Shown piece by piece: positions 179 to 40,118 of a DNA stretch of 40,118 nucleotides. The position numbers were made by a program, and so were the translations under genes. The DNA comes from a virus: the IMG/VR virus record IMGVR_UViG_3300043436_001843, positions 1 to 40,118 of that record; one strand, 5' to 3'. Numbering within the stretch: position 1 is the stretch's first letter; the number at the start of each line of letters is the position of its first letter. The notes below the pieces were generated by a model. That model worked only from the letters and a program-made list of their open reading frames with translations. It was not told where the DNA came from and did not search any database.

Positions 179-240
179 AAGAGGTGCTATGCCCTCAGTG
201 TTACGAGGCAACAACGGAAGAGTTAGGACTTAAGTCATGA
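1..240 (+). CDS. small zinc-ribbon protein, 3' part (gene crosses the circle junction)
   Basis: Open from base 1 in frame to TGA at 238-240. Its 5' end lies at the right end of the window (ATG at 39920), so the closed genome encodes 86 residues. Two Cys-X2-Cys pairs (CTQC and CPQC) suggest a zinc ribbon, perhaps binding nucleic acid or protein. The last codons (Leu-Lys-Ser, stop) are formed by a CTTAAGTCATGA element that also starts the next gene, giving a 4-base ATGA overlap. I do not recognise the family; the function is unknown. Confidence 0.75.
   Translation, partial: SAPFLVTPETWHDETRFLDLALTDGICTQCFAPIGWESVPMGDSDGQVWHDYWTVNEDMEEVLCPQCYEATTEELGLKS
229..239 (+). promoter_or_regulatory. start-associated element CTTAAG-TC-ATG
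   Basis: Reads AGGACTTAAGTCATGA. CTTAAG lies exactly 2 bases before the ATG of the next gene, with a weak AGGA ribosome-binding core directly before it. The same arrangement occurs at 510, 725, 2459, 39756 and 39912, and on the minus strand at 20720-20730. Confidence 0.6.
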
Positions 241-521
241 GAGACAATGCAATAACAGAAGAACGAGGTCCCGTGAGAATCACGGAGCACGAGGGGGTGA
301 CACTTGCGAACGGGTTGCCACTTGACTACCACCGATGGAGCCTTGAGCATTACACCGAACTAATGTCCGACCTTAAGACAGGTAAGACAACGCCCGTGAA
401 GATTATCGGCAGGGGCTACGGGTCACGGGGCAGGCGTATCGCTACCGAGTGGGTGCAGTACGGCATTGACGGGGCACGGGAGTGCATTGAAACACTGGAA
501 GGGTTAGGTCTTAAGTCATGA
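237..521 (+). CDS. hypothetical small protein
   Basis: 94 residues, mixed charge, no signal peptide or membrane segment. The ATG at 237 overlaps the previous stop (ATGA) and is placed by the CTTAAGTC element just before it. A basic patch (GRGYGSRGRR, about residues 57-66) could contact nucleic acid, but I recognise no family. The gene ends with the same Leu-Lys-Ser-stop sequence as its predecessor, coded by CTTAAGTCATGA, and so overlaps the next gene by 4 bases. This tight packing indicates one rightward operon with coupled translation. Confidence 0.75.
   Translation: MRDNAITEERGPVRITEHEGVTLANGLPLDYHRWSLEHYTELMSDLKTGKTTPVKIIGRGYGSRGRRIATEWVQYGIDGARECIETLEGLGLKS
510..520 (+). promoter_or_regulatory. 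start-associated element CTTAAG-TC-ATG
   Basis: AGGTCTTAAGTCATGA, the same layout as at 229. The upstream gene reads through it as Leu-Lys-Ser-stop. Confidence 0.6.
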
Positions 522-721
522 CTATCATCGCAAGAATCAGGACAGAATCAGACCGTGATACGGGGCTATTCGTTCGCACCTTTGACACAATGGAGGAGGC
601 AGACACCTTCAGCGACAACGCCCTAGGCAAGTGGACAGATACGGGGCAGGTGAAACTCATATCATTATTTGACAGTGAGACGGGCAACTCTTCCGACTGG
701 GAACTAGAGACGGGGAAGTGA
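518..721 (+). CDS. hypothetical small protein
   Basis: 67 residues, acidic, no Cys, no hydrophobic segment. It starts at an ATG two bases after CTTAAG and overlaps the preceding stop by 4 bases. The central part (TFDTMEEADTFSDNA) looks like a short alpha/beta unit, but no family is recognised. It is followed 11 bases later by the next gene, again through a CTTAAGTC element. Confidence 0.7.
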   Translation: MTIIARIRTESDRDTGLFVRTFDTMEEADTFSDNALGKWTDTGQVKLISLFDSETGNSSDWELETGK

Positions 722-724
722 GGT

Positions 725-735
725 CTTAAGTCATG
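725..735 (+). promoter_or_regulatory. start-associated element CTTAAG-TC-ATG
   Basis: AGGTCTTAAGTCATGA in the 11-base gap between two genes. Here CTTAAG is non-coding, so its conservation cannot come from protein sequence. Confidence 0.65.
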
Positions 736-936
736 AACGAGGAACTTGAACTCTACCTAGACATGCTGAGGGGTGACCTTGAGGTAGAGGTAGACCTACA
801 CGGCGGGCGTACTGAAAAGTCACGGACTCTTCGTGAGTTAATTATCTACACCGAGAAGGAACTGTCGGTACTTAAGTCAGATGCCGATGAGTTTGCGGGT
901 GAGAGAATCTCAGCCAGTATGGAGGACATGTCTTAA
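733..936 (+). CDS. hypothetical small acidic protein
   Basis: 67 residues, rich in Glu and Leu, probably largely helical (ELELYLDMLRGDLEVEVDL near the start). CTTAAG occurs twice in it: in frame as Leu-Lys near codon 47, and at the end, where the stop TAA is part of TCTTAAG. It is the last gene before a 172-base gap holding a promoter, so it closes the first rightward gene group. Function unknown. Confidence 0.7.
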   Translation: MNEELELYLDMLRGDLEVEVDLHGGRTEKSRTLRELIIYTEKELSVLKSDADEFAGERISASMEDMS

Positions 937-971
937 GACAGGTGGTGTGCCAAATGTCACAGCAAATAGGC

Positions 972-1000
972 TTGACATATTGTTACACACTAGGTAGTGT
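972..1000 (+). promoter_or_regulatory. rightward promoter, TTGACA -35 with overlapping dyad operator
   Basis: TTGACA at 972-977 is a perfect sigma-70-type -35 box. With a 17-base spacer the -10 would be TAGTGT (995-1000, 3 of 6 matches). The -10 is the right arm of a perfect inverted repeat ACACTA-GG-TAGTGT (987-1000), the expected place for a repressor operator. It lies in the 172-base gap upstream of the 1109 gene. The -35 is clear; the weak -10 suggests need for an activator or dual control. Confidence 0.6.
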
Positions 1001-1108
1001 AGTACACATACCAACGGGTGACCAGTAGGCAGGGGAGTGCAAGCCTCCCGCACCCACCATGCGAAGCAACAACGCCGAGCAGTAGAGAATCCTAGAAGGG
1101 GATTAACA

Positions 1109-1687
1109 ATGAAGAGACAAGATATCCTAGAGATAATCGTGAGCAACCCTGAGGCGGTCTTCAAGAACGCCAATGCGGAGGCGGGCAAGTACAGCGAGTA
1201 CCCTACCTACTTCCAAGTGGTAGGCATGGCACACGACAAGGCTTATGTCCGAGTCAAGGAAGTGAACCCAGTGTCCGCTTACTACCAACTCAACGAGGCA
1301 GGCAACCCAGTGCACGATGAGGACGGCAAGGTTCTTTACGACACCCGCCCTATTGCGGAGCGTTCCTTCCTTAAGTACGGAGCAATCAAGACCATGCCAT
1401 CACGGTTAGTTCTTAAGTCAGACAAGACAACCGACTCGTTGCTTGCAGACTTCATCACATACCACGAGACCCGTGAGCGTGAACGAGCAGAGCGTCAGGC
1501 AGAAGAGGACAACTTCACGAATGTCCGTGACACCTTCGCTAACGCCTTGGTCTGTGCGGGTATCTTGCCCAACGATGACGAGGTTGGTAGTGCTTGGGGT
1601 TACAAGGTGAATGTCTACTTCACCGAAGAAGCAATGACCCGTATGACTTCGCTTCTTAAGTCAGCACTCGTAGAAGTGGGGGTGTGA
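1109..1687 (+). CDS. hypothetical protein
   Basis: 192 residues from the ATG at 1109, chosen because GAAGGGG (1095-1101) sits 7 bases before it. An in-frame ATG at 1037 has no ribosome-binding site and would add an unlikely Arg-rich leader. The protein is soluble and charged, with a Glu/Arg-rich helical stretch (ETRERERAERQAEED, about residues 120-134). CTTAAG occurs three times in frame as Leu-Lys. It is the first gene after the promoter at 972, so it is probably well expressed. No family recognised. Confidence 0.75.
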   Translation: MKRQDILEIIVSNPEAVFKNANAEAGKYSEYPTYFQVVGMAHDKAYVRVKEVNPVSAYYQLNEAGNPVHDEDGKVLYDTRPIAERSFLKYGAIKTMPSRLVLKSDKTTDSLLADFITYHETRERERAERQAEEDNFTNVRDTFANALVCAGILPNDDEVGSAWGYKVNVYFTEEAMTRMTSLLKSALVEVGV

Positions 1688-1688
1688 G

Positions 1689-2180
1689 ATGTTAGCGACA
1701 CGAGAACAACTCATTGACGCTGGTGCCTCCATCATCATTGACGCATACGAGGGCGGGTCATGCGGGCTTGCTTCATGGGCGGTGTGCTATGGCACCTACA
1801 AGTGGACGACAGACAAGGGCGACTATGAACTAGGCGAACGCAACACTGGCGCAAGCGTGACGCTCTACGACTTGGAGGCATGCGAACCTCAAGACGATGA
1901 AGGCGAGGAAGGCACGGGCTTCTGGTCAGGCGGTGACTGGTACAAGTTTGGCAAGCCTCTCCCGATTGACGCTGAGATGGTTGCTGACTTCATCGTGAAG
2001 GTAGGCAAGGGTGACCTTGACTTAAGTCAGGTACCTGATTACGGCAGACTGAATGACTCAACACTTAAGGCATTAGTCTCCATGTACCACGGCTGGGACT
2101 CAGCCTTTGACGATTGGGATTGCATTAACGCTGACCAAGTTATCCAGTTCATGCTCTTAGGGGAGGTCACCTATGGGTAA
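1689..2180 (+). CDS. hypothetical acidic protein
   Basis: 163 residues, strongly acidic, rich in Trp, Tyr and Gly (GFWSGGDWYKFGK in the middle). It starts one base after the preceding stop and overlaps the next gene by 8 bases, so translation is coupled. CTTAAG occurs twice, once read as Asp-Leu-Ser (frame D-TTA-AGT) and once as Leu-Lys, so the motif is kept in more than one frame. Small acidic phage proteins sometimes mimic DNA or inhibit host proteins; for this one that is speculation only. Confidence 0.7.
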   Translation: MLATREQLIDAGASIIIDAYEGGSCGLASWAVCYGTYKWTTDKGDYELGERNTGASVTLYDLEACEPQDDEGEEGTGFWSGGDWYKFGKPLPIDAEMVADFIVKVGKGDLDLSQVPDYGRLNDSTLKALVSMYHGWDSAFDDWDCINADQVIQFMLLGEVTYG

Positions 2181-2463
2181 GTACAAGGTTGTCTTCTCCT
2201 ACTCGGTAGAGGTAGAGGCAGAGGACGAGCGTGGTGCAGAGGACATGGCGTGGGAACTGTTTGGTAAGGGTCTTGACCCAACGAACACTGATGACTTCGC
2301 TTGCATCGTTGATGAAGTGGAAGATGTGTGGGATACCAACGAGAACGGCAACCACACCTGTGTAGATTGCATGGACGAGGTATCACCTGATGATGTATTA
2401 GGTCACAGCAAGTGGGGAGAACCACGATGCGAAGGTTGCTATGAGAATTGGAAGAGGTCTTAA
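2173..2463 (+). CDS. hypothetical protein with C-terminal zinc ribbon
   Basis: 96 residues. The N-terminal half starts with a beta-strand (YKVVFSYSVEVEAED) followed by an acidic helix. The C-terminal half carries two Cys-X2-Cys pairs (CVDC near residue 63, CEGC near 87), the layout of a four-Cys zinc ribbon. Its stop TAA is inside TCTTAAG, and the next gene starts 3 bases later. A nucleic-acid or protein contact role is likely from the zinc ribbon; the specific job is unknown. Confidence 0.75.
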   Translation: MGKYKVVFSYSVEVEAEDERGAEDMAWELFGKGLDPTNTDDFACIVDEVEDVWDTNENGNHTCVDCMDEVSPDDVLGHSKWGEPRCEGCYENWKRS

Positions 2464-2469
2464 GTCATG
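2459..2469 (+). promoter_or_regulatory. start-associated element CTTAAG-TC-ATG
   Basis: AGGTCTTAAGTCATGA. The TAA of CTTAAG is the stop codon of the upstream gene here, a different reading frame from the copies at 229 and 510. Confidence 0.65.
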
Positions 2470-2808
2470 AACTATTCACCTAACCACCCCGCCGTGCGAG
2501 CATGGCAAGACAACCGTAGGTGCGACCAATGCTGGGGCACTGACCTGCCAGTGGTACGCAAGTACAACATGTGCACCGAGTGCGAGCCACTCACAATCCG
2601 TGAGCGTAAGAACCTAGTGAACCTCCGAGCAGGACGACAGATGATGAGGTCAGGACTTAAGTCCCGTGCACTCGTTGGACTGGGGCTGTTTATCGCAGGG
2701 TGCTACGCCTTGGACATCACCTACCTCGGTGGGCTGGTGCTGTACGGCATGTGCTTTATCTGTTGGCAGACAGGACTCAACCGTTGGTTCAAGGAGCAGG
2801 GACTATGA
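2467..2808 (+). CDS. zinc-finger membrane protein
   Basis: 113 residues. The N-terminal part has Cys-X2-Cys pairs at about 19-22 (CDQC) and 36-39 (CTEC), a zinc ribbon, followed by a basic linker. The C-terminal half holds two close hydrophobic segments (about 68-84 and 86-104), so a cytoplasmic zinc ribbon on a membrane hairpin is likely. The gene ends in an ATGA overlap with its successor. It could anchor a phage or host complex at the membrane; no family recognised. Confidence 0.7.
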   Translation: MNYSPNHPAVRAWQDNRRCDQCWGTDLPVVRKYNMCTECEPLTIRERKNLVNLRAGRQMMRSGLKSRALVGLGLFIAGCYALDITYLGGLVLYGMCFICWQTGLNRWFKEQGL

Positions 2809-3002
2809 GCGCAATCATCAGACTGCAATGCGACAAGTGCAACGGCATGTCATCACTCACCCACTACGGGACAGCGACAGACGCACGAGTGGTGGAGTTC
2901 AAGCACGGCTGGTTCTACGACTACCTACACGGCGAGCCTGCTGACCTGTGCCCTGTGTGTTCAGGTCGCAACCCTAACTACTGGGTAGAGGAGCCATTCT
3001 AA
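2805..3002 (+). CDS. small zinc-ribbon protein
   Basis: 65 residues from the ATG at 2805, which overlaps the previous stop (ATGA) and has AAGGAGCAGG 4 bases upstream, the best ribosome-binding site in this operon. Two Cys-X2-Cys pairs (CDKC near residue 9, CPVC near 50) form a zinc ribbon around an aromatic central part. It overlaps the next start by one base (TAATG). A possible adaptor or nucleic-acid-binding protein; not assigned. Confidence 0.75.
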   Translation: MSAIIRLQCDKCNGMSSLTHYGTATDARVVEFKHGWFYDYLHGEPADLCPVCSGRNPNYWVEEPF

Positions 3003-3307
3003 TGAGGTACTGGAGACTGTTCATCAACGGCATACGAGAGTGGCTTGCCCCCGTAGTCAAGGCATACCAATGGATAATGAAGAATGTCCGTAAGCCTGAA
3101 GAGAGAGAGGAAGGCTGGGTCATAGCGTTAGCAACTTGCGCCAACGGGACACCATACAAATACTTTAGGTACTGCCCGTATGAGGTGTGGCGTTGGACAA
3201 CCAAGAAGTCAATGGCTGAGATATTCCCAAGCCTTAAGACAGCAGAGTATGCAGCAATGAACTCATCTGTCTACTACCAATCTGCGTACAGGATAATGGA
3301 AATCTAA
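3002..3307 (+). CDS. hypothetical protein
   Basis: 101 residues, last gene of the rightward operon. Rich in Trp, Tyr and Arg/Lys (MRYWRLFINGIREWLAP), with an amphipathic N-terminus but no clear membrane helix. It starts at a TAATG overlap with the preceding stop. A CTTAAG is read in frame as Leu-Lys near residue 78. A strong terminator hairpin follows 27 bases after the stop. Confidence 0.65.
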   Translation: MRYWRLFINGIREWLAPVVKAYQWIMKNVRKPEEREEGWVIALATCANGTPYKYFRYCPYEVWRWTTKKSMAEIFPSLKTAEYAAMNSSVYYQSAYRIMEI

Positions 3308-3334
3308 TCCGTATCTGATACGCTCATAGATAGA

Positions 3335-3374
3335 GCCTCTGGCTGGTGTTCCCCCTTCGCACCAGTCCAGAGGC
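3335..3374. terminator. bidirectional terminator between convergent operons
   Basis: GCCTCTGG-C-TGGTG (3335-3348) pairs with CACCA-GT-CCAGAGGC (3360-3374) around an 11-base loop, followed by a T-rich stretch on the plus strand (TTCTTCTATTT). It separates the end of the rightward operon (3307) from the end of the leftward operon (3380), so it probably stops both. The leftward tail is less clean (A/T-mixed). Confidence 0.8.
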
Positions 3375-3379
3375 TTCTT

Positions 3380-3646
3380 CTATTTCCAATAGATAGTCTG
3401 CGGTCTACGGACAAACTCTTCCCGTTCCTTCGGGGTCATGCCACCCCACATACCATCACGGCGTTTAGTCTCAGCCTCAAACGGAAGTTGGAACTTAAGA
3501 CACTCAACTCTCACGGTGCAGGCATCGCAGAACTCTCGTGCCTTAAGCCAGTAGAAAGTACGGACATCACCTGTTGGTATCTCAGGGAAAAAGATACTGG
3601 TGTCTACGCCCTTGCAGTTTGCTTTATCTTGCCAAGCCTCGCTCAC
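3380..3646 (-). CDS. whiB: WhiB-like iron-sulfur transcriptional regulator
   Basis: 88 residues. Four cysteines in WhiB spacing (Cys11, Cys40, Cys43, Cys49; C-X28-C-X2-C-X5-C) bind a 4Fe-4S cluster, and GMWGG (65-69) is the family's Gly-Trp turn before a basic DNA-binding tail. WhiB proteins occur only in Actinobacteria and their phages, so this gene is the best host indicator in the window. They usually act by binding the primary sigma factor; phage versions can displace host WhiB proteins. GTG start, overlapping the previous stop (GTGA). It is the last gene of the long leftward unit. Target promoters are not known. Confidence 0.93.
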   Translation of the reverse strand: MSEAWQDKANCKGVDTSIFFPEIPTGDVRTFYWLKAREFCDACTVRVECLKFQLPFEAETKRRDGMWGGMTPKEREEFVRRPQTIYWK

Positions 3647-29400: not shown

Positions 29401-31981
29401 GTAATTTTTCTAATGCTTCGTTGCCACGGAAAGGTTTGAATATGCGCCAAAGATTAGTTGTCTCACGGATAACTTGATTCAAAACATCAGGGTTAACCAT
29501 TAAGAAACCTTGATTCAAGAAATCAATACTGCGGATAATGTCGCCTGTTCCGTCCTCAAGCCACGGGGTTGGATATCCCATACCGATAGCGTCCATTGTC
29601 CACTGGCGGATTTCATTAGACCAGTTAGACCATGTAGATACCTGCTTAATCCAAGCCTCGTCAACACCGTTCTTTCTTAAGGCAGGTGAAAGAACTGTTT
29701 CCATCCAGTCGTTAGCCAATTCAAAGCGAGCACCTGAACCTCGTTGTGCTACTGCCCGCATAGCGGTGTTAAGCATTGCGTGTCGTTGAGCCTCAGGAAC
29801 TTTCATAATTATCATTAATCGGTTCATGTCTTTGATGGAACCCATTGGGTCATCAAAAGAAAAGAATGTTGAGCCAGGCATTGTTGCAAATTGACGGGTT
29901 CTGCCAGATACAGCCTGTGCAACTTTCTTGCCTGTTTGGTTAACCGCTTGAGTTAACCATCCTGGTACTTCTGCAACACCGTAGAAAGGGTCGGCAGAAA
30001 GAACACCATCAACAAGAACTTTGTGGATTTGGTTTAGGTCAACTTCTGTCCCTGCGGCACGGGCTGCTTGAACGATGTCGTCAATTTGTACTGCGGCACC
30101 TGGTGGGATGTTCCCAAGAAACGCATCGTATATTTGACCAGCATTGTCGTAAGAAGCAAGTTTGGCAAGAGTCCTGCGACCATCACGGGTGAATGGCATG
30201 TTGTCAATAGCCATAGGGTCAGGGCGAAGACCATCAGGTCCGTCAACTAAACCAACAGCAGATTCAAAATCTCCTCGTGAACCTGAAGGTGGGGTGTAAG
30301 CAATGTCGTTTGGTGGTGCATCAAGGGCAGCCAATGACTTTCCTTCTATCTCACGGGCTGCTAATGCTTGTGCTGCATTTTCAATTTCATCTGGGAGTAC
30401 GGTCCCAGGTGGGAGAATCCCAGCAAATCTTGGTATCTCGTCTGCCATCATTGCACCGCCTGCAGGACCGTAGCGTCCTGTTGTCGGGTCAAAAACCATG
30501 TCAATAACATCAGTTATCAATGTTGACTGGTCTGCCGCTAGGCGTTGTGCAGCCCATGCGTCACGAACGATGTCTGCTTTGCGAGCGTTGAGAAGTGTTG
30601 TTGACCCTGTGCGTGTCAGATTAAAAGTTTTCATCGCTATTCGTACAGGGTCAAAATAGATTGATGGGTCTGTGGCAACAGTGAAAACTGCGTCTGTTAA
30701 ACCAGAAAGAGCAGAAGCAACAACTCCGTCACGGTCAATCCAGTTTTCTTGGATAAGTGGTTCTACTGCTGCTCTACCAAGTGTCCATGTTTTGCCAGCA
30801 ATCTTTGGCAATCCAGCATCGTGGGCGATACGGGCTTCTTCAGCAATTTTTCCTTCAGGGAAGAAACCAGAACCAAGGTCTATTCTTTCGTTGCTTAACG
30901 CTGCTTCAGCAACTTGACTAATAACATTGCCTCGGATAACGGTGTTGATGTAATCCTCGTCACCAAAGTTAGGCATGAAAAGTGACATTTGGTTAGGGTT
31001 TAAAAGGGAAGCAAAACCATTCTTTGTGATGTTGTATTCAATGTTTGCTTTTGTGAACTGTGCTGCACCCGTGAATCCTGTGGTTAGTCCACGGGCGGCA
31101 CCACGAGGGATGTCAGCGGCAAATCGTAATTGGTCTGGGGCGAGGAATCCAAGGAAACGGAATGGAAGAGCGACAACATCTTTTGTCATTGCCATCGTGG
31201 GTCCAAGGTCTGCAGTCATTGACTGGATAAGGCTTGGCTTTGGACCTGCTTCTGCTTCATCATATGCTTCCGACAATTTCTTGAATGATGGGTACTTCAT
31301 AAAAAGCATTTGTCTTGCATCGTTCTTTTCACTGCCAGGGACTAAGCCTTTGCCAGTGAACATTGCACCATTGTAATCTGTAGAGAAATCAGCGTTTTTA
31401 ACTATTTCCCCTGTACCCCGTACTCGCTTATAACCGTCCCAGTTAGGGAGTGCCAATCTTACGACACCCATATTGCCACCGTTGCCGATAAACCATTTCA
31501 TCAGTTGGGCTTCAGATAAATTTAAAAGGTCACGAGCATCAGTGATTTCATCTCTGTTTGGTACATAGAGACTGCGCCAATAACCAGTTGGGTCAACCTT
31601 GTCGTACCACCAAGGGTCTGGGACACGAGGACCATCACGGTCTTTAGACTTTTGTTCACGGACAAACAAGTCGTTTAGTGAACCAGGGGTTCCTTTGCCA
31701 GCATCTGCTGGTGTAAAAGCAGAAAAAACATCCGTGTTGAACTTGTAGTTTTCACGAACTTTTTTTACCGAATTAGCATGAATCTGTTGTGGGTCTACTG
31801 GTACACCAGATAAACCAAGTGCTGCCTTAAGTTCTGGGTTTGTGTATTTACCGCCAGGTACAAATGAAGATACACGCTTTGCAGTTTCAGGTGTAATTGT
31901 TGATTCAAACTCTGCCCGTTTAGTTTTAAGAATTTGGGCTTCTTGTTCTTGTTGAATTAATTGTGCTTCACTCTGTCTCAT
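26495..31981 (-). CDS. giant internal virion / ejection protein
   Basis: 1828 residues, the largest gene. It starts in an ATGA overlap with the preceding gene. Mostly helical, with Ala/Arg/Lys-rich stretches, several possible membrane-active segments (LLFGFFDAWFEQW, GQAIPGFFGFGAMSV), a long N-terminal part rich in Asp/Gly, and a charged C-terminus. No lysozyme or polymerase motif was recognised. Size, position and composition fit the large ejected proteins of short-tailed phages (T7 gp16-type) that form a channel across the envelope. A polyprotein or unrecognised enzyme cannot be excluded. Confidence 0.55.
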   Translation of the reverse strand: MRQSEAQLIQQEQEAQILKTKRAEFESTITPETAKRVSSFVPGGKYTNPELKAALGLSGVPVDPQQIHANSVKKVRENYKFNTDVFSAFTPADAGKGTPGSLNDLFVREQKSKDRDGPRVPDPWWYDKVDPTGYWRSLYVPNRDEITDARDLLNLSEAQLMKWFIGNGGNMGVVRLALPNWDGYKRVRGTGEIVKNADFSTDYNGAMFTGKGLVPGSEKNDARQMLFMKYPSFKKLSEAYDEAEAGPKPSLIQSMTADLGPTMAMTKDVVALPFRFLGFLAPDQLRFAADIPRGAARGLTTGFTGAAQFTKANIEYNITKNGFASLLNPNQMSLFMPNFGDEDYINTVIRGNVISQVAEAALSNERIDLGSGFFPEGKIAEEARIAHDAGLPKIAGKTWTLGRAAVEPLIQENWIDRDGVVASALSGLTDAVFTVATDPSIYFDPVRIAMKTFNLTRTGSTTLLNARKADIVRDAWAAQRLAADQSTLITDVIDMVFDPTTGRYGPAGGAMMADEIPRFAGILPPGTVLPDEIENAAQALAAREIEGKSLAALDAPPNDIAYTPPSGSRGDFESAVGLVDGPDGLRPDPMAIDNMPFTRDGRRTLAKLASYDNAGQIYDAFLGNIPPGAAVQIDDIVQAARAAGTEVDLNQIHKVLVDGVLSADPFYGVAEVPGWLTQAVNQTGKKVAQAVSGRTRQFATMPGSTFFSFDDPMGSIKDMNRLMIIMKVPEAQRHAMLNTAMRAVAQRGSGARFELANDWMETVLSPALRKNGVDEAWIKQVSTWSNWSNEIRQWTMDAIGMGYPTPWLEDGTGDIIRSIDFLNQGFLMVNPDVLNQVIRETTNLWRIFKPFRGNEALEKLLNQQLTNKLAEIQGNYLKPVAMGAPLPIRMVTRILPDEMLRVAATGGMDHTSLKILGVGGHVNYTTHGAVIKSAKEITKIFPIVEHLEELAKKLDDLVAAGKAGEATDIANEIAKIEAKHGTLDELLGYIKTYQERMDTVLPGANKMVAEQIDGLMAKERKDPRVMRYERSTVTQHAWKERNPTEWVEGTATDLVRMNASEEYRVIAGVLLTGSVADSVALPERFLNGDLKTVLDNYRKGLGNESIMIPLTSIDGVSAWVQTIVEDIFVRSGMDTRLIEVIANGKLGTAAASTKSATNIYKASPELIDYVKTNALPDPRSAAVAPFHYTKAIAESEELDRWFTKLFSVYRNASAKYARNPFSQSEKWKRIIELMPVMDPAEAAKMLDAIDKSDAPEWLVDSIKRQLPNAKGTATRKQVETLGEMHGQQRMADVLYDYSKKSYFGSKHNLLFGFFDAWFEQWSVWTRQIIQQPSLLQKASLAKTGLEETELPAAWQNNDGGILFKDEDSEQHFITVPFSKEVYDMLGLNAEERISVKNLTLLGQAIPGFFGFGAMSVDSMLPKSENFQALRSLLFAYGDPEVKNKIADYVVPAFGQGIVSGGLGIAKRTGVLPSTDLIDNIQAMMVGDMSERQKAGLKNSVLTNMAYNWDGIPITIEEREALLNIVESRTDWLSLLKSTFRIISPTASMTKFFVETGQENVTSGTVLDDIRKFQEETGDFNQAVTLMLEKYGPSAWIYLSGASTANPGMQATKEFADWQSENGHIVDNYPLIGSYFGPQTGEYDPKAFSSQRASGYRAPKDIKERQDKAFKNLAWNINRTRQQKYFKMGAEQGLTEKEVRNSPGFKAEMKKLNASLKKTYPMWSPSASGDQEQIDQLQEIERMVRDKKVLATPGGKALKEYWDFRNLKVDRMTKAVPSMDNDTWKESPRASGFRQILIDKGEEIIAKTPEFAAMWENILSREFSPPEVG

Positions 31982-34271: not shown

Positions 34272-36245
34272 TTACTTAAGCCAGGATGGTCGCCACTGGC
34301 GGGGCGGTGCCTTGGCTTGTGTCAAATTAGGCAAGTTAAGAATCGCCATCCATAGTGCCATCACAATGTCGGTTCCATGTTTCTTGTCTCTGTGCCACTT
34401 AGTTAGTTCATCTTGGGCTGCAAGAGTCTTCCAGTTGCCCTTCATAGATGGGAACCGTAACGCTCCAGACCTGATAACTGGGGGGAGCAGGGCTTCCACA
34501 CCAAGGGTTTCGTCAATCTTGTTGCGGTGAGTTGTGTGCCCTAAGACATTAACTCGGTGCAGTGCCTGCCATTTACGCACAAAGTCGTGGGCTAGGAGGA
34601 AACGCTGGGCTGCGTTAATCTCTACAACCCAATGGGAGATGGGGTAGCCCATATCATACGAGCGTTGTTGCCACTGGTCCATAAGACCTGAGTATTCACC
34701 TGTGCTGGTGTTGTAACCAAGTACCTCTTCGGCTGTCAACTTCACCCGTTCAAGGTCCACGATGTAGTACATGTTGGTTTGTGGCTGGTAAATAATCCAC
34801 ACAAACGCCCAGAACATAGTAGGGCTGGGGTCTACTGCCACAATAGATATCCACGGGTGGGCTAACCCCTCAGGGATATACCCTGGTTGGCGGTCAACAT
34901 CCACACACCCTGGGTAGTCAACCCCGTCTAGACCTTTACCGCCAGTAATCCAAGTACGGTCCACCAGACGAGAGTCCAAATCCAAGTCTTCTTGCTGATA
35001 AACAACTTTAAAGACATCGGGCTTGTTGTATCTGATGAAAGATAGGTCTTTCCACGGTAGACGCTTCGGGTCTAGTAGCGGTCCGTCTGGATACGGAAGA
35101 GATTTGAAAGAACGAGATTCTTTGCCCGTGTCAAGTTCCTCATAATACGCCTTATAAATAATATGACGGTACTTTCGTTGGCGAGTCGGTAGCCCTTCCT
35201 GTACATCTTCAGGGGTAATGACATCTGACCCATCATAATTGAGGTCCTCGTCAATATCGTAAGTTTCTTTGGCGAGACAATGAGCGTAAAGGTCCCCCGA
35301 ACCGAGTCTTTGCCCGACAACAGCCAGCAACCCCCCTGGGTCGCAACGGGCTTCTGCCACACCGTCCCATCTTTCCAGAAGTTTGTCCCTAGCCACGCTT
35401 TCTCTCGCATTGTCAGGAGAGGCAACATCGTCAAAGAGACATAAGTCGGCTCGGTGACCGATAAATTCTGCTTCAATTCCATACGCACGGACAGTCGGCT
35501 CTTTGTTGTCAAGCCCGTTCCCGTCAAGTTGTTCAACAACGAACTCTTCAGCCCGCCAAAGGGCACCTTTGTCCACTGGTTTGAATCTTCCATAGTCAAT
35601 CGTCAAGCATCCTTCTGCGTTTACCGCTAAACCTTTTTCCACCATACCTGGGTCTGGCTCAATCGGCATAGTTCTTTCCAAAGTTTCACGGATACGGCGG
35701 GAATACATCTTCGCCATGTTCTGTGAAACAGACCCAATCATCACACGCACCCTACGGTTACGGCAAATAGCCCACACCGCAACATCATGGAACAAGGTTG
35801 ACTTGCCCGCACCAGGGGGAACATTGATAACTACGAATTCTTTTTCCTCAGACTCCAATAGTTCTACAAGAGTTAGGGCTGCTTCTACCTGCCAAGGGGA
35901 AGGGACACGCCCAAGATAGTGGGAACGGAAGAAGTCAAAATCTTCTAACCCTCGTAAAGCATTTTCACATAACTGGTCATGGGGGATAGCAGATGGGAGG
36001 TCAATGGCATCCATGAAGTTCATGTGCTCTAGTTCCTGGCGACCACCAGAACCACGACCCGTAGCGGCTTTATGAACAGCCTCTTTACGACCCGCTTCTA
36101 ATTCTTTAGCCTTCTTAACCCAACGGGTACCTGTGTTGTAGTGGACACCAGTTGCGGCACACGCATCTTTGATGTTTCTTCCCGCAGCAATCAGGGCAAA
36201 GAACTTTGCTTTGTCTTGAGGCGGGACTGCTCGTTTAGTCCCCAT
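34272..36245 (-). CDS. terL: terminase large subunit with N-terminal helix-turn-helix
   Basis: 657 residues. An N-terminal helix-turn-helix (about 12-45, AAGRNIKDACAATGVHYNTG) resembles a small terminase DNA-binding domain. The ATPase has Walker A PPGAGKST (143-150) and Walker B LCLFDD (268-273). The C-terminal RNase H-like nuclease shows IVAVDPS and HWVVEINAAQ. It cuts and pumps DNA into the capsid. No separate small terminase gene was recognised next to it, so the fused domain may replace it. The stop codon is read as Leu-Lys-stop through a CTTAAG. Confidence 0.92.
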   Translation of the reverse strand: MGTKRAVPPQDKAKFFALIAAGRNIKDACAATGVHYNTGTRWVKKAKELEAGRKEAVHKAATGRGSGGRQELEHMNFMDAIDLPSAIPHDQLCENALRGLEDFDFFRSHYLGRVPSPWQVEAALTLVELLESEEKEFVVINVPPGAGKSTLFHDVAVWAICRNRRVRVMIGSVSQNMAKMYSRRIRETLERTMPIEPDPGMVEKGLAVNAEGCLTIDYGRFKPVDKGALWRAEEFVVEQLDGNGLDNKEPTVRAYGIEAEFIGHRADLCLFDDVASPDNARESVARDKLLERWDGVAEARCDPGGLLAVVGQRLGSGDLYAHCLAKETYDIDEDLNYDGSDVITPEDVQEGLPTRQRKYRHIIYKAYYEELDTGKESRSFKSLPYPDGPLLDPKRLPWKDLSFIRYNKPDVFKVVYQQEDLDLDSRLVDRTWITGGKGLDGVDYPGCVDVDRQPGYIPEGLAHPWISIVAVDPSPTMFWAFVWIIYQPQTNMYYIVDLERVKLTAEEVLGYNTSTGEYSGLMDQWQQRSYDMGYPISHWVVEINAAQRFLLAHDFVRKWQALHRVNVLGHTTHRNKIDETLGVEALLPPVIRSGALRFPSMKGNWKTLAAQDELTKWHRDKKHGTDIVMALWMAILNLPNLTQAKAPPRQWRPSWLK

Positions 36246-36254
36246 AGGGTTATT

Positions 36255-36521
36255 CTACCACTTAACTTTGTCAGCCCAGTATGCGGCAGACATTTTCCCT
36301 TTAGCAATGTTTTTAGCATGGCGGTCTTTGAACGCTTTGTTACGGGCAGAGCCATCAGGAGAACCTGACACACCTTGCTGACCAAAACGAATTGTCTTCA
36401 CTTGGTCGCCAACTTTGGCTACAACAACATGAGATTTAGTTGGGTGCTTAGGGGTTGCCTTCGGCTGGTTGAACCCTGACACTCCTGCCCGTTCAAGTCG
36501 GGAATCCTTCTTCGCTGCCAT
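36255..36521 (-). CDS. conserved basic phage protein upstream of terL
   Basis: 88 residues. AGVSGFNQPKATPKHPTKSH, VKTIRFGQQGVSGSP and the end KMSAAYWADKVKW are strongly conserved strings that I recall from many tailed phages (possibly the DUF6321 group; from memory). It is basic and probably binds DNA or the virion. It lies just before terL in the packaging region and shares one base with the preceding gene. Confidence 0.75.
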   Translation of the reverse strand: MAAKKDSRLERAGVSGFNQPKATPKHPTKSHVVVAKVGDQVKTIRFGQQGVSGSPDGSARNKAFKDRHAKNIAKGKMSAAYWADKVKW

Positions 36522-36946
36522 TACTTCTTTTTCTTAGGCTTTGGGAAAGGAACAACTTTTCCGTTGGCATCCATGCCACGGATTTCAGTAGAAATACGCT
36601 TATAGGCTGCCTTATCTGGACCGCTTTTCATCAAGCCTTTCATGCCTGAAGATTTACCAGACCAAAAATCCATCTTCGGGCTGTTTGCTTCAAGGTAATC
36701 CCAAATAGGTTGCTGACCTTTGAAAGAGCCTGTTGACTTTGAATACTTCATAGGGTCAACACCCTTAGATTCAAGAACCTTCTTTGCTGCGTTCCATGTT
36801 GCATCTCCCTTTTTAAAGTAGAGAGGAGCAGTGGATGCGCCCATACCTGAACGACCTGCCGCATCTGTGCGGGCTGCCTTCTTCTTGTCGGCTTCTTCCT
36901 TCATACGGAAGTCTGCTGCTGATGGGGTTTTCTTTTTTGCTGCCAT
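36521..36946 (-). CDS. basic hypothetical protein, first gene of the leftward unit
   Basis: 141 residues, Lys-rich at both ends (AAKKKTPSA at the start, PKPKKKK at the end) around a Gly/Ser-rich centre. It could be a small terminase substitute or a DNA-bound virion protein, since it comes before terL, but there is no diagnostic motif. As the first leftward gene it lies opposite the promoter-like sequence at 36948-36975, so both strands are used there. Confidence 0.65.
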   Translation of the reverse strand: MAAKKKTPSAADFRMKEEADKKKAARTDAAGRSGMGASTAPLYFKKGDATWNAAKKVLESKGVDPMKYSKSTGSFKGQQPIWDYLEANSPKMDFWSGKSSGMKGLMKSGPDKAAYKRISTEIRGMDANGKVVPFPKPKKKK

Positions 36947-36947
36947 G

Positions 36948-36975
36948 TTGCAAACGATAACACACCTGCTACACT
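36948..36975 (+). promoter_or_regulatory. rightward promoter-like sequence before the RNA candidate
   Basis: TTGCAA (36948-36953), 16 bases, TACACT (36970-36975): moderate matches to -35 and -10. A short inverted repeat ACAC-TCC-GTGT (about 36971-36981) covers the -10, echoing the ACACTA/TAGTGT operator at 987-1000. Transcription would start near 36983, just before the structured stretch. Confidence 0.45.
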
Positions 36976-36982
36976 CCGTGTC

Positions 36983-37354
36983 ACAACTTCACTCTCGCAG
37001 GGCTGTATACCGATTGCATGGTACGGGGCAATTCACACCAGGGAACTGGGGTAGATGAACCCTGCAATCAAGCACATCTGAAAAAGATGGTTGTGCCCCT
37101 ATTGCGTAAGAGGTTCAAGCAGCGTTGAATGAACGACTAAACATTTCTACCTTTCAGGTGTCGGCTAAAAGAACTTGGCTACGGCGACCTTGGTATCAGT
37201 TAGATACCTAAACCGTGGGGGAGGCTAATCCATGACTGCTAACCATCCAGTTCCACCTACGGTGGCTAACGCCCTCGGCTACGCCATCGGTTGTTTGCAA
37301 AGAAGTGAGGCACAAGGTTTCAGATAAACTTCCAAGTCAGTGGTTTTCTTTTTT
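36983..37354 (+). ncRNA. candidate structured non-coding RNA, about 370 nt
   Basis: No coding potential but dense self-complementarity: a long-range stem GGGGCA (37025-37030) with TGCCCC (37094-37099), enclosing hairpins CAGGG/CCCTG (37039-37064) and CATCT-GAAAA-AGATG (37075-37089). Farther on come GTTCA/TGAAC (37113-37134), GGTATC-AGTTA-GATACC (37192-37208) and ACCGTGG/CCAC-CT-ACGGT (37212-37263). It ends in a T-rich run (37344-37354). A promoter-like sequence precedes it. It matches no RNA family I know (tmRNA, RNase P, 6S and group I intron cores were looked for). The opposite strand, as a leader of the late transcript, is the alternative. Confidence 0.55.
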
Positions 37355-37458
37355 CATCTTCTCTGCCACTTAGGTCGGTAGTTAACAAGCCCGCCAGCCA
37401 ACCGTACAACAACCCACCCGCACACCACACCAGTCACACACAAAAAGAGTGAGTCCAT
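37354..37458 (-). CDS. possible 34-residue membrane peptide
   Basis: ATG at 37458, TGA at 37354-37356. It would have one hydrophobic helix (LFLCVTGVVCGWVVVRLAGG) and a basic end (RPKWQRR). The frame is open upstream to 37707, but that part is low-complexity and unlikely to be translated. There is no clear ribosome-binding site. It ends exactly where the RNA candidate's T-run begins, so it may be chance. Confidence 0.3.
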   Translation of the reverse strand: MDSLFLCVTGVVCGWVVVRLAGGLVNYRPKWQRR

Positions 37459-37596
37459 CTTTGTCACATACCACACCCCCACACCCACGGGTGCCTCGGC
37501 AGAGGGCGGGTTCGGGTCTGCATACCCCCTAGGGTATCCCCGATTAGACCGATGGTCTATGAAAATAACATAACTAACATTATGGGCGGAGGCATA

Positions 37597-37633
37597 CCCC
37601 CCACGGTACCCCGCCGAAATACCCCCCTCCCCC
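37597..37633 (-). other. G-quadruplex-capable tract
   Basis: On the minus strand there are four G-runs (5, 6, 4 and 6 Gs) separated by 1, 9 and 6 bases. This meets the usual pattern for a stable G-quadruplex. It lies within the control region, 2 bases from the first iron-box-like palindrome. Confidence 0.5.
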
Positions 37634-37634
37634 T

Positions 37635-37652
37635 TGTTAGGTGAGCCTAACA
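37635..37652. promoter_or_regulatory. iron-box-like palindrome, copy 1
   Basis: TGTTAGGTGAGCCTAACA: 7-bp perfect arms around 4 bases. TTAGGT-AGCCTAAC matches 14 of the 19 positions of the DtxR/IdeR consensus TTAGGTTAGCCTAACCTAA. Second copy 101 bases to the right. Confidence 0.5.
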
Positions 37653-37735
37653 CTTTCCGCATGGTGGAGAGTCGTGGGCTGTTCGGGCGGTTGCCTTGTG
37701 CTTGCAATAGTTAGCACTGTGTTTGCAAGTGTTGT

Positions 37736-37753
37736 TGTTAGGTGTGCCTAACA
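37736..37753. promoter_or_regulatory. iron-box-like palindrome, copy 2
   Basis: TGTTAGGTGTGCCTAACA, identical to copy 1 except one loop base. It is followed 5 bases later by a CTTAAG (37758). Arms conserved twice in non-coding DNA point to a bound dimer. Confidence 0.5.
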
Positions 37754-37956
37754 CTGTCTTAAGGCTTGCCCGTTGTCTCATATTGTGGGAATCCTCTTAG
37801 CGGGCTTGAGACCCCCTCTACTCGTGAGTAACCCCCCTTGCGCATGGAAGGGTACCTAATAATTGCGTCATGACGATATTAATTTCCCCCTATCTTTATT
37901 AGTTGCACACTACAAATAGAAATATTGGAAATGGGGTAGCGGTGAGCGTTGTGAGG

Positions 37957-37972
37957 GTGTACCGTGGTACAC
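37957..37972. promoter_or_regulatory. operator-like palindrome upstream of the rightward operon
   Basis: GTGTACC-GT-GGTACAC, perfect 7-bp arms, 41 bases before the ATG at 38013. Immediately after it a GGGGGA-ACC-TCCCCC hairpin (37979-37993) precedes the ribosome-binding site. The promoter boxes themselves are not clear. Confidence 0.55.
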
Positions 37973-38012
37973 AACAGCGGGGGAACCTCCCCCACTACCG
38001 AAGGGGTAGAGA

Positions 38013-38711
38013 ATGACAACAGCAACCACGGAGGCAACGGAGACGGTGAGTCTCTCCCGCCTCATTGAGACACTCACCGAGGGTGCCCGCCAACTTGCGG
38101 AGCATGCCGAGGAACTTGACGGCACCGTAATCCCTCAAGTTCTCGTGACAGTGGCACGAGATGAAGAGCGCAAGGGTGGCGGACTTAAGTTAGGACATAT
38201 CACCACGGTTCCCGCATGGGAATCAACCGAGGGCGAGGGGTTCCTAGAGTTGCTCATAACGGGGCAAGGACTTACACGAGGCGGGCGGGCAGTGTTCGGA
38301 ACACTTGCCCACGAGATGTCTCACGCCTACAACATTGCGAAGGGCATCAAGGACACCGACACCAACGGCAGACACAACAAGCGTTTCAAGGACACCGCCG
38401 AACGAGTGTTCGGGCTTGAGATTAGTAATCACAAGTCAATCGGGTGGAGCCTCACCGAGGTTCCCGACACCACCGCCGAATTGTGGGCGGGACTCATTGC
38501 CGAAATTGACGAGGCGATAACGGCGGTAGCGGGCGGACTTAAGACAGCACCTAAGACGAAGAAGAGGAACAAGAACCTACTTAAGGCAGTGTGTGAGTGT
38601 GGCAAGGTAATCCGTGCTAGTCGGACAGTGTTGGAAGAGTGCGAACCCCTCTGCAAGGTATGCGAGACAGTGTTCAAGGCAGAGGGCGAAGAAGAAGAGG
38701 GGGAGGACTAG
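38013..38711 (+). CDS. SprT-like zinc metalloprotease with zinc ribbon
   Basis: 232 residues, GAAGGGG 7 bases before the ATG. HEMSH (100-104) is the HExxH zinc-protease motif, within TLAHEMSHAYNIAKGIKD and followed by NGRHNKRFKDTAERVFGL, as in SprT-like domains. The C-terminal 45 residues have four Cys (CECG and CKVC, about 194-217), a zinc ribbon, and an acidic tail. SprT-like proteases cleave proteins on DNA; a phage copy could remove DNA-bound host proteins early in infection. First gene of the rightward unit. CTTAAG occurs three times in frame. Confidence 0.8.
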   Translation: MTTATTEATETVSLSRLIETLTEGARQLAEHAEELDGTVIPQVLVTVARDEERKGGGLKLGHITTVPAWESTEGEGFLELLITGQGLTRGGRAVFGTLAHEMSHAYNIAKGIKDTDTNGRHNKRFKDTAERVFGLEISNHKSIGWSLTEVPDTTAELWAGLIAEIDEAITAVAGGLKTAPKTKKRNKNLLKAVCECGKVIRASRTVLEECEPLCKVCETVFKAEGEEEEGED

Positions 38712-38720
38712 GACGAGGCT

Positions 38721-38740
38721 CCCCCGCCTACGGGCGGGGG
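38721..38740 (+). terminator. G/C-rich hairpin, first intergenic cassette
   Basis: CCCCCGCC-TACG-GGCGGGGG right after the protease gene, without a T-run. A near-identical hairpin stands after the next gene (39068). It may attenuate rather than fully terminate, since the operon continues. Confidence 0.6.
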
Positions 38741-38823
38741 GTTGCCTAGGGTGCCTCGCTCAGGCGGGCGGGGTGCCTTAGGGAATCACAAGGGTTCCGA
38801 CTTAAGACCGAAGGGGTCACACA

Positions 38824-39054
38824 ATGAAAAAGAAGAAGACAATTTACAGCGACAAGAACTATCCACTCCAAGCGGGCAGACAGTACGAGGTCACCCCCGT
38901 GGACTACTGGATTCCGTCCTACTCGGAGAATGTCTCACTGATGAAGATTAATCGCTACGGGCAGGCGACTCTATCGGTGGCGACAGATTCCGCCCTCGTA
39001 GGGGTTCAGACCGTAGTAGTTCAGGCGGATTCGCTTATCTGGAGGGAGGCGTAA
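38824..39054 (+). CDS. hypothetical small basic protein
   Basis: 76 residues, N-terminal Lys run (MKKKK), then beta-rich (YEVTPVDYWIPSYSENVSLM, QTVVVQADSLIW). GAAGGGG 7 bases before the ATG. It sits between two duplicated intergenic cassettes. Function unknown. Confidence 0.65.
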   Translation: MKKKKTIYSDKNYPLQAGRQYEVTPVDYWIPSYSENVSLMKINRYGQATLSVATDSALVGVQTVVVQADSLIWREA

Positions 39055-39067
39055 AGGTCACGGGGTT

Positions 39068-39089
39068 CCCCCGCCTACGGGCGGGGGGG
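39068..39089 (+). terminator. G/C-rich hairpin, second intergenic cassette
   Basis: CCCCCGCC-TACG-GGCGGGGG, the same sequence as at 38721, followed by TTGCCTAGAG; no T-run. Confidence 0.6.
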
Positions 39090-39092
39090 TTG

Positions 39093-39131
39093 CCTAGAGT
39101 TCTTCGGACTTAAGACCCGAAGAGTTCTAGG
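39093..39131 (+). promoter_or_regulatory. 15-bp hairpin with CTTAAG in its loop
   Basis: CCTAGAGTTCTTCGG (39093-39107) pairs fully with 39117-39131 (two G-T pairs), leaving the 9-base loop ACTTAAGAC. It lies between the second G/C hairpin and the next gene's ribosome-binding site. In the first cassette the corresponding place has a different, G/C-rich hairpin. Confidence 0.6.
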
Positions 39132-39172
39132 GAATCACAAGGGTTCCGACTTAAGCCTAGAAGGGGCAGACA

Positions 39173-39478
39173 ATGACAACAACAACAACAACGGGGCGCA
39201 CGGCACTAGCGCAAGAATCGGGAAGAGTTTCCCTAGTGTGCAAGTACCTCCCCACTACTAACCACCGTGGCACCCGTATCACGGTACAGCGCAACGACTC
39301 CCCCGCATACGGGAAAGACCCGCACAAGGTAACGGTCTCATGGGACTACGCCCTAGGAATCACCGAGAACTACACCAAGGCGGTGCAGGTGTACCTTGAC
39401 GGCGCACAGTGGCGGGGTATCTGGAAAGTTGCCACCACTCACAACGGTGCAGTGGCAGTATTCGTGACGGAACTCTAA
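39173..39478 (+). CDS. hypothetical small protein
   Basis: 101 residues, a Thr run at the start (MTTTTTTG), then beta-rich (RITVQRNDSPAYGKDPHKVT, WKVATTHNGAVAVFVTEL). GAAGGGG 7 bases upstream. No Cys pair and no membrane segment. The next gene follows 18 bases after its stop. Not recognised. Confidence 0.65.
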   Translation: MTTTTTTGRTALAQESGRVSLVCKYLPTTNHRGTRITVQRNDSPAYGKDPHKVTVSWDYALGITENYTKAVQVYLDGAQWRGIWKVATTHNGAVAVFVTEL

Positions 39479-39496
39479 GAGTTAGGACTTAAGACA

Positions 39497-39760
39497 GTGT
39501 ACGCAAAGTATGAGATAGGTATCTGTTCCGATTGCTTAATGGCAACGGCGAACGGAGTGACAGAAGAACAAGGCGTAGAGTTCGCAGAGCGTTACGCCAA
39601 GGCGGTGGAGTTAGAAGGGCAAGAACCTAGCCTCAGTGATGACAGTGAGGGGTGCTTCTCGTGGAGTGGTTGCGGGTTCTGTCGTGACACTCTTGGCGGG
39701 CAACGGTACGAGGCGTACCTAATCCCAACAGCAGAAGAAGTCATGAAGGGTTGGTCTTAA
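39497..39760 (+). CDS. actinophage zinc-binding protein
   Basis: 87 residues, GTG start 3 bases after a CTTAAG. CSDCLMATANG near the start and FSWSGCGFCRDTLGG near residue 55 are strings I know from a widespread family of small actinophage proteins; the Cys residues likely bind zinc. Its stop TAA is part of TCTTAAG. Function of the family unknown. Confidence 0.75.
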   Translation: MYAKYEIGICSDCLMATANGVTEEQGVEFAERYAKAVELEGQEPSLSDDSEGCFSWSGCGFCRDTLGGQRYEAYLIPTAEEVMKGWS

Positions 39761-39766
39761 GTCATG
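39756..39766 (+). promoter_or_regulatory. start-associated element CTTAAG-TC-ATG
   Basis: GGTCTTAAGTCATGA; the TAA is the stop of the upstream gene and the ATG starts the 50-residue gene. Confidence 0.6.
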
Positions 39767-39916
39767 AAGAATGATGGAGCAATGAGATTAGTAATAAGCC
39801 CCGAAGAGGCAAAGTCACTGATTAGGTACTACAACAGAACAGAACAAGAGTTGCCTAAGTGGGCGGTGGATTATGACGGGGAGTCCTGCGTATGGTTGGA
39901 AGAGGATGAGGCTTAA
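39764..39916 (+). CDS. 50-residue acidic protein
   Basis: Short ORF read by hand: ATG at 39764, TAA at 39914-39916 inside CTTAAG. Reads as a helix (EEAKSLIRYYNRTEQEL) followed by an acidic end (WLEEDEA). It is bracketed by CTTAAGTC elements at both its start and end, which supports it being real. No family recognised. Confidence 0.65.
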   Translation: MKNDGAMRLVISPEEAKSLIRYYNRTEQELPKWAVDYDGESCVWLEEDEA

Positions 39917-39922
39917 GTCATG
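39912..39922 (+). promoter_or_regulatory. start-associated element CTTAAG-TC-ATG
   Basis: GAGGCTTAAGTCATGA; starts the zinc-ribbon gene that crosses the circle junction. Confidence 0.6.
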
Positions 39923-40118
39923 AGTTACTACGAGCAAACTTCAGCCCCGTTTCTTGTCACGCCTGAGACATGGCATGACGAAACTAGGTTACTAGACCTA
40001 GCCTTGACCGATGGTATCTGTACTCAGTGTTTCGCACCTATCGGGTGGGAATCCGTGCCAATGGGAGACAGTGACGGGCAAGTATGGCACGACTACTGGA
40101 CAGTGAACGAGGACATGG
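39920..40118 (+). CDS. small zinc-ribbon protein, 5' part (continues at base 1)
   Basis: ATG at 39920, open to the end of the window. From base 39941 on it repeats bases 1-178, so the full gene has 86 residues when the circle is closed. It contains the first Cys pair (CTQC); the second (CPQC) is in the left-end copy. One base differs between the copies (Leu here, Phe there). Confidence 0.75.
   Translation, partial: MSYYEQTSAPFLVTPETWHDETRLLDLALTDGICTQCFAPIGWESVPMGDSDGQVWHDYWTVNEDM
39941..40118. repeat. terminal direct repeat, right copy (matches 1-178)
   Basis: 177 of 178 bases identical to the left end; the difference is at 39991. See the left copy for interpretation. Confidence 0.9.

Follow-up and report, generated by a model that had tools for sequence, protein, structure and literature searches.

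The sequence analyzed was the IMG/VR virus record IMGVR_UViG_3300043436_001843. The window is the whole of this record, positions 1 to 40,118 (40,118 bases), and the genes and cassette parts located below are all on its + strand. The two ends, 1–178 and 39941–40118, repeat the same 178 bases with one mismatch; therefore, the window probably represents a complete genome, about 39.9 kb long. Three open reading frames, 38013–38711, 38824–39054, and 39173–39478, are separated by two gaps, 38712–38823 and 39055–39172, which exactly fill the spaces between them. The first gene encodes a SprT-like metallopeptidase of 232 aa with the motif HEMSHAYN (Pfam SprT-like, E 2.2e-4, a match below Pfam's curated cut-off). 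The second (76 aa) has no Pfam match and no relatives in the viral_contigs collection, and the third encodes a protein of 101 aa.

The two gaps and their predicted fold

The initial annotation described the two gaps as a non-coding cassette duplicated in front of two unrelated early genes, and both parts of that description held. The genes following the gaps gave no mutual match at E 1e-3, and every listed part of the cassette was found in both gaps in a common order: CCCCCGCC-TACG-GGCGGGGG, TTGCCTAG, a second hairpin, GGGAATCACAAGGGTTCCGA, CTTAAG, and GAAGGGG. The longest blocks common to both gaps, GGGAATCACAAGGGTTCC and CCCCGCCTACGGGCGGGG, each occurred in the window at these two sites and nowhere else, even with up to 3 mismatches allowed (chance means of 0.02 and 0.00, respectively). 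Predicted folding of each gap was better than that of all 200 of its own dinucleotide shuffles (z of −4.9 and −4.1). What the initial annotation treated as spacers, TTGCCTAG and GGGAATC, proved to be the arms of the second hairpin, which exists as proposed but is larger than described, with a stem of 20–22 positions when these arms are included.

The first hairpin, P1, is CCCCGCC-UACG-GGCGGGG, with 7 bp and a UACG loop. It lies at 38722–38739 in copy 1 and 39069–39086 in copy 2, where the pairs C38721/G38740 and C39068/G39087, respectively, could each add one more; P1 begins 10–21 nt 3′ of the upstream stop codon. The second hairpin, P2 (38740–38787 and 39088–39136), starts with GGUU-G-CCUAG and ends with CUAGG-G-AAUC (UUAGG-G-AAUC in copy 1). 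Its 4-bp base, GGUU/AAUC (GGTT-G-CCTAG.../...AGG-G-AATC in the DNA), is separated from the stem by one G·G mismatch (G38744·G38783 and G39092·G39132), and this mismatch is invariant. The P2 stem has 17 bp in copy 1 (38745–38761/38766–38782, loop AGGC) and 15 bp in copy 2 (39093–39107/39117–39131, loop ACUUAAGAC), so that with base and mismatch included P2 spans 22 and 20 positions. When the window copies were compared over 15 aligned P2 pairs, there were four two-sided and three one-sided changes, and no pair was broken.

P1 and P2 can be closed into a three-way junction by a helix, P0, between strand a, located before P1 (38715–38720 and 39062–39067), and strand b′, the GGUUCC after P2 (38793–38798 and 39142–39147). 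In copy 1 this pairing is also present in the MFE fold. The segment GGGTTCC has alternative partners, either the stretch just 5′ of P1, which closes the junction, or GGGAATC; in the latter case strand b′ becomes the 3′ strand of a competing helix, P3 (with 38782–38787 in copy 1). Downstream of strand b′ are CTTAAG (38801–38806 and 39150–39155) and the Shine-Dalgarno sequence GAAGGGG (38810–38816 and 39160–39166), the two together occupying 38801–38816 in copy 1 and 39150–39166 in copy 2. There is weak evidence that the copy 1 Shine-Dalgarno sequence falls in a small predicted hairpin, ACC-GAAGG-GGT. A hairpin of at least 4 bp over the ribosome-binding site was predicted at 4 of 50 distinct sites, compared with 1.5 in shuffles, and a family-wide rule of this kind was rejected as only weakly above the shuffles.

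CTTAAG is present in both gaps, as the initial annotation noted, but it is not specific to the cassette: there are 53 copies in the window versus 8.8 expected, with 26 in the early region and the highest density at 37758–39917 and 229–3547. The context is often GWCTTAAGWC, and at stop/start junctions the sequence occurs as CTTAAGTCATGA. Among 31 early regions of at least 2.5 kb, 20 had no CTTAAG (17.4 expected in sum), 9 had at least four times the expected number, and 2 were between; thus the palindrome is either enriched or absent among the relatives.

Distribution among relatives

Relatives were collected by a terminase search, from which the best 80 of 352 matching stretches were taken as loci. 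A pattern scan based on P1 found the cassette in 8 contigs. Of the 13 loci found by a search with the SprT-like protein, 8 had the cassette (one cut by the contig end) and 5 lacked it (L107–L111). The cassette is thus present in nine other IMG/VR contigs, complete in eight and cut by the contig end in one. The same SprT-like peptidase gene is directly upstream of it in all nine, and the genes on its 3′ side vary among the eight complete contigs: L084, L086, and L088 have a gene of the 39173 type, L085 has one of the 39497 type, and L083, L052, L087, and L106 have others. Whatever gene follows, the cassette stays in the interval from a stop codon to the following ribosome-binding site. Window copy 2 is an exception in placement, being located after the extra 38824 gene rather than after the SprT-like gene.

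According to the initial annotation, relatives that carry these genes without the cassette would argue against it, and the answer depended on the distance of the relative. All three close homologues of the 39173 gene (82–85% identity) have a cassette in front of them, whereas diverged homologues (36–51% identity; L058, L107, L009, L007, L040, and L102), some of which match over part of the gene only, are preceded by other leaders. The cassette is therefore tied to its clade and to the SprT junction, and not to gene 39173 in general.

Further scans gave no additional true copies. A search with a model of the cassette in 100 sources (the window plus 99 loci) found no site elsewhere above 21.5 bits. 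A scan with the 3′ half (AGGGARYCACAAGG..TTCC) gave 13 stretches, 3 with the cassette and 10 unrelated (L089–L098), and a scan with P2 only gave 8, of which 7 were contigs with the cassette and one, L115, matched by chance. The P1 pattern had no matches in 84,980 bacterial and archaeal genomes, and an exact cassette fragment had none in the viral_contigs collection, which may exclude the window itself. Likewise, a scan of the 84,980 genomes revealed no terminase relatives, and the nearest named terminases had less than 60% identity. The cassette region had no meaningful DNA match in the annotated phage collection, where the sole DNA match of 36000–40118 was 36255–36534. This segment, which includes an 88-aa gene adjoining the terminase, has 67–78% DNA identity with phages of Roseobacter, Celeribacter, and Lentibacter and with a few unclassified phages.

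The five SprT-like loci without the cassette have other structures in the corresponding gap. In L107, in L109 and L110, and in L108 and L111, the gap after the SprT-like gene contains unrelated multi-hairpin structures, some of which fold as three-way junctions. Because these gaps hold unrelated hairpins, structure seems to matter more than sequence at the SprT-like junction.

Two other kinds of early leader were observed in these phages. Upstream of the terminase in L014, L015, L017, L025, L049, and L054, early-gene leaders contain, in this order, a GTGAC..GTCAC hairpin, a hexamer resembling TTGACA, and a short inverted repeat ahead of the ribosome-binding site; in sequence they look like operator-controlled promoters. 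Other early genes have tRNA-like leaders in front of them. These combine an acceptor stem with a T-arm whose loop is T-loop-like (UUCGANY or UGCRANY); they lack an anticodon arm and have ACCA, ACTA, ACAA, or GCTA as the tail. In 15 of 50 regions, 18 such elements were detected with a descriptor, compared with 0–2 in each of 10 shuffles and none on the reverse strand. One lies in the window at 1016–1059 (+ strand), before the gene starting at 1109; L017, L025, L040, L041, L042, L054, L068, L072, L075, L076, and L078 have one each; and L035, L079, and L080 have two each. The acceptor stem and T-stem together make 11 bp in 12 of the 15 distinct elements. The descriptor itself requires pairing, but among 11 elements tabulated out of the 15, two-sided variation occurs at 10 of the 11 paired positions. 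ARAGORN found no tRNA in the window or the 15 loci scanned, and Rfam found none in the window or 10 loci. The tRNA-like leaders are possible RNase P substrates.

Selection on the RNA fold

Covariation was examined in ten full copies from nine contigs (the window plus eight others) aligned with MAFFT. Standard pairing was present in 98.8% of 260 cells, and 13 of 26 pairs had changes on both sides, a number matched by none of 500 shuffles. The covariation score was 0.452, compared with 0.206 in the shuffles, none of which scored as high; indeed, none of the five measures was reached by any of the 500. These values come from copies of which five (L084–L088) are mutually close, so that the cells are not independent and the effective number of sequences is 1.48. 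In a control in which the structure was slid along the alignment, 38–61% of cells could pair, and RNAalifold, given the same alignment and no structure, returned P1 and P2.

The kinds of pairs present show which nucleic acid is involved. In a hand alignment of P1, the P2 base, and P2, the 270 cells comprised 220 Watson-Crick pairs, 47 G-U, 2 A-C, and 1 other. The asymmetry is informative because a G-U pair on one strand is an A-C pair on the other; therefore, the selected pairing is that of the + strand (sense) RNA and not of a DNA palindrome. Judging from these sequence comparisons, we consider it highly likely that the sense-RNA fold is real and selected. This agrees with the suggestion of the initial annotation that selection keeps the non-coding cassette, since the relatives alter its letters by compensatory changes. 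The sequence of P1 is nearly invariant among the copies, which is partly a matter of ascertainment, because the first scan used P1. L106, which came from the protein search, retains UACG and has two P1 pairs changed on both sides.

The wobble asymmetry also bears on the proposal that the cassette is a mobile regulatory unit, or more generally a recombination or mobile DNA element whose palindrome serves gene exchange and is selected as DNA. Such an element would account for relatives in which the downstream gene differs and the cassette stays, and for the second window copy around the orphan 38824 gene. However, 47 G-U against 2 A-C pairs indicate pairing in RNA, the cassette was found nowhere among the 100 sources away from the SprT junction (except window copy 2), and there were no matches in the 84,980 genomes. 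A DNA-level palindrome or mobile element was rejected on the basis of the wobble asymmetry and the fixed location, and we regard this explanation as very improbable.

Rfam gave no matches at the gathering score, and at a permissive threshold the only match in 37400–40118 was mir-202 (E 1.9); a known RNA family was thus rejected. Like candidate structured RNAs of the Rfam type, the cassette has a conserved sense-RNA fold with covariation, but it matches no Rfam family. As an RNA family it is new, although of a known general kind.

Conservation as RNA also sets the cassette apart from the start-associated sequences (SAS) and extended elements (ESAS) described in cluster K mycobacteriophages, with SAS-like motifs in Microbacterium cluster EF. 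There, too, repeated non-coding elements precede unrelated early genes of one phage, with a short part at the ribosome-binding site and a longer inverted-repeat part upstream (PMC3203893, PMC7302621, PMC11373665). The cassette is likewise repeated and non-coding, its Shine-Dalgarno region is conserved, and it lies beside the start codons of early genes that are unrelated, so it could be a DNA or mRNA signal of this kind acting at translation or transcription starts. However, the ESAS inverted repeats are reported not to support RNA pairing (PMC3203893), and they are described as containing promoters and as probable protein-binding DNA or promoters (PMC3203893, PMC7302621, PMC11373665). ESAS do not co-vary as RNA, whereas the cassette pairs strongly and its fold is conserved while its letters change. 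The 13-bp SAS consensus, GGGATAGGAGCCC, which lies near start codons, had no match in the window with 2 mismatches allowed, and the cluster EF variant, GGGAAAGGACCCC, had one, at 31687, against a chance mean of 1.23. A scan of 37400–40118 for promoters, limited to the sigma-70-like type, found no site of the SigA-like sort expected with ESAS. With the consensus absent and the variant at chance level, SAS/ESAS membership was rejected; we consider it quite improbable.

The helices were also examined separately with strand-swap controls. For P0, 52 of 60 cells were paired, a value reached by 58 of 5000 controls, and for the P2 base 40 of 40 were paired (233 of 5000). For the competing helices the controls were not exceeded: P3 (GGAAUC/GGUUCC) was paired in 58 of 60 cells (1338 of 5000) and P1ext in 36 of 40 (974 of 5000). 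The computed base-pair probabilities for P2 base and P3 ranged across the ten copies from 0.06/0.94 to 0.95/0.01. Many copies are thus predicted to have an ensemble in which the P2 base and P3 both take a share, and the data do not single out one fold.

This competition is compatible with a two-state RNA switch coupled to upstream translation. Strands a, b (GGUU), a′ (AAUC/AGCC), and b′ (GGUUCC) would pair either as P0 plus P2 base, giving the three-way junction, or as P1ext plus P3, giving three hairpins in a row; a ribosome finishing the SprT gene would cover strand a, bias the fold, and set access to the downstream leader. Strand a lies no more than about 20 nt downstream of the stop codon, all four helices are possible in nearly every copy, and P2 base and P3 do compete in the computed ensemble. 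However, P3 and P1ext are within the range of the strand-swap control and could be by-products of the other two helices combined with relatedness, the balance goes between extremes from copy to copy, and the ribosome-binding site is outside both helices. We regard the switch as rather unlikely; the three-way junction is better supported.

Possible roles and comparison with known elements

The initial annotation suggested an attenuator or antitermination site, and paired hairpins of this sort could halt RNA polymerase or modify it as put- or nut-like sites do. The sense RNA does have two adjacent hairpins, the first of which, with its UACG loop, is very stable and lies shortly downstream of a stop codon. 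The antitermination RNA put of phage HK022 likewise consists of two adjacent hairpins in phage early RNA, a similar layout. The cassette, however, is located after a gene and not at a recognized promoter, none adjoining it, and the middle of P2 is unconserved in sequence, unlike what a site contacted by polymerase or protein would need. A scan of 37400–40118 for a G+C-rich stem with a T-run found two sites, both on the minus strand (shuffle mean of 2.5). No sense-strand hairpin there is followed by a T-run; the sequence immediately 3′ of P1 is GGUUGCC, and that 3′ of P2 resembles CACAAGG. An intrinsic terminator in the cassette was rejected on these grounds. The suggestion of an attenuator therefore found no terminator-like site on the sense strand to act through, leaving it a terminator without a U-tract, and we consider attenuation or antitermination unlikely.

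The mechanism we consider most likely, with slightly less than even confidence, is intercistronic punctuation of the mRNA, that is, RNase processing and/or stabilization of the downstream early message. Each gap would be transcribed within the early polycistronic mRNA, and its RNA would fold through P1, P2, and P0 into a three-way junction just 5′ of the ribosome-binding site. The P2 stem might then be a double-strand substrate or a barrier for a host ribonuclease, by RNase III-like cleavage or by blocking an exonuclease. As a result, the SprT message would be separated from the early message downstream and each would be stabilized independently, with the downstream gene translated from its own leader. 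In the window, the extra small gene is flanked by two such elements, hence the duplication.

A processing or roadblock role is suggested because the stem keeps its length and pairing while its letters drift. RNase III processing sites are double-stranded stems of about 20–22 positions in an intercistronic gap. P2 with its base has 20–22 positions in all ten full copies, and this geometry in an intercistronic gap is thus present in 10 of 10, cleavage itself being a candidate only. We infer the processing role from geometry and place. The near-invariance of P1, in part a matter of ascertainment, is more than a purely double-strand role would need.

In this uncultured phage group the RNA boundary itself is under selection, as shown by a covarying element without an Rfam match that is fixed at one early-operon junction while the next gene is exchanged. 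The cassette provides a defined substrate for studying how phages set separate expression levels within one early transcript. The cassette and the tRNA-like leaders jointly suggest that structural punctuation of mRNA may be a general habit of this phage group. A broader version, which we hold to be doubtful, is that the early operon of this phage family is punctuated by several unrelated structured RNAs, each separating a stop codon from the leader that follows. RNase P would read the tRNA-like acceptor–T-arm elements and a double-strand RNase would read the cassette, possibly with a built-in two-state fold sensing upstream translation. A search of open-access papers found no description of the cassette or of tRNA-like leaders in phage early operons. 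If true, this broader version would amount to a phage equivalent of the tRNA punctuation of mitochondria, with interchangeable marks.

A known parallel for the cassette alone comes from the T7-like phages, whose early mRNA has RNase III processing sites between the early genes. Those sites resemble the cassette in being stable hairpins of about two helical turns that lie downstream of one gene's stop codon and upstream of the ribosome-binding site of the next. The cassette differs from them in having a three-way junction and a separate UACG hairpin, and the likeness is one of layout.
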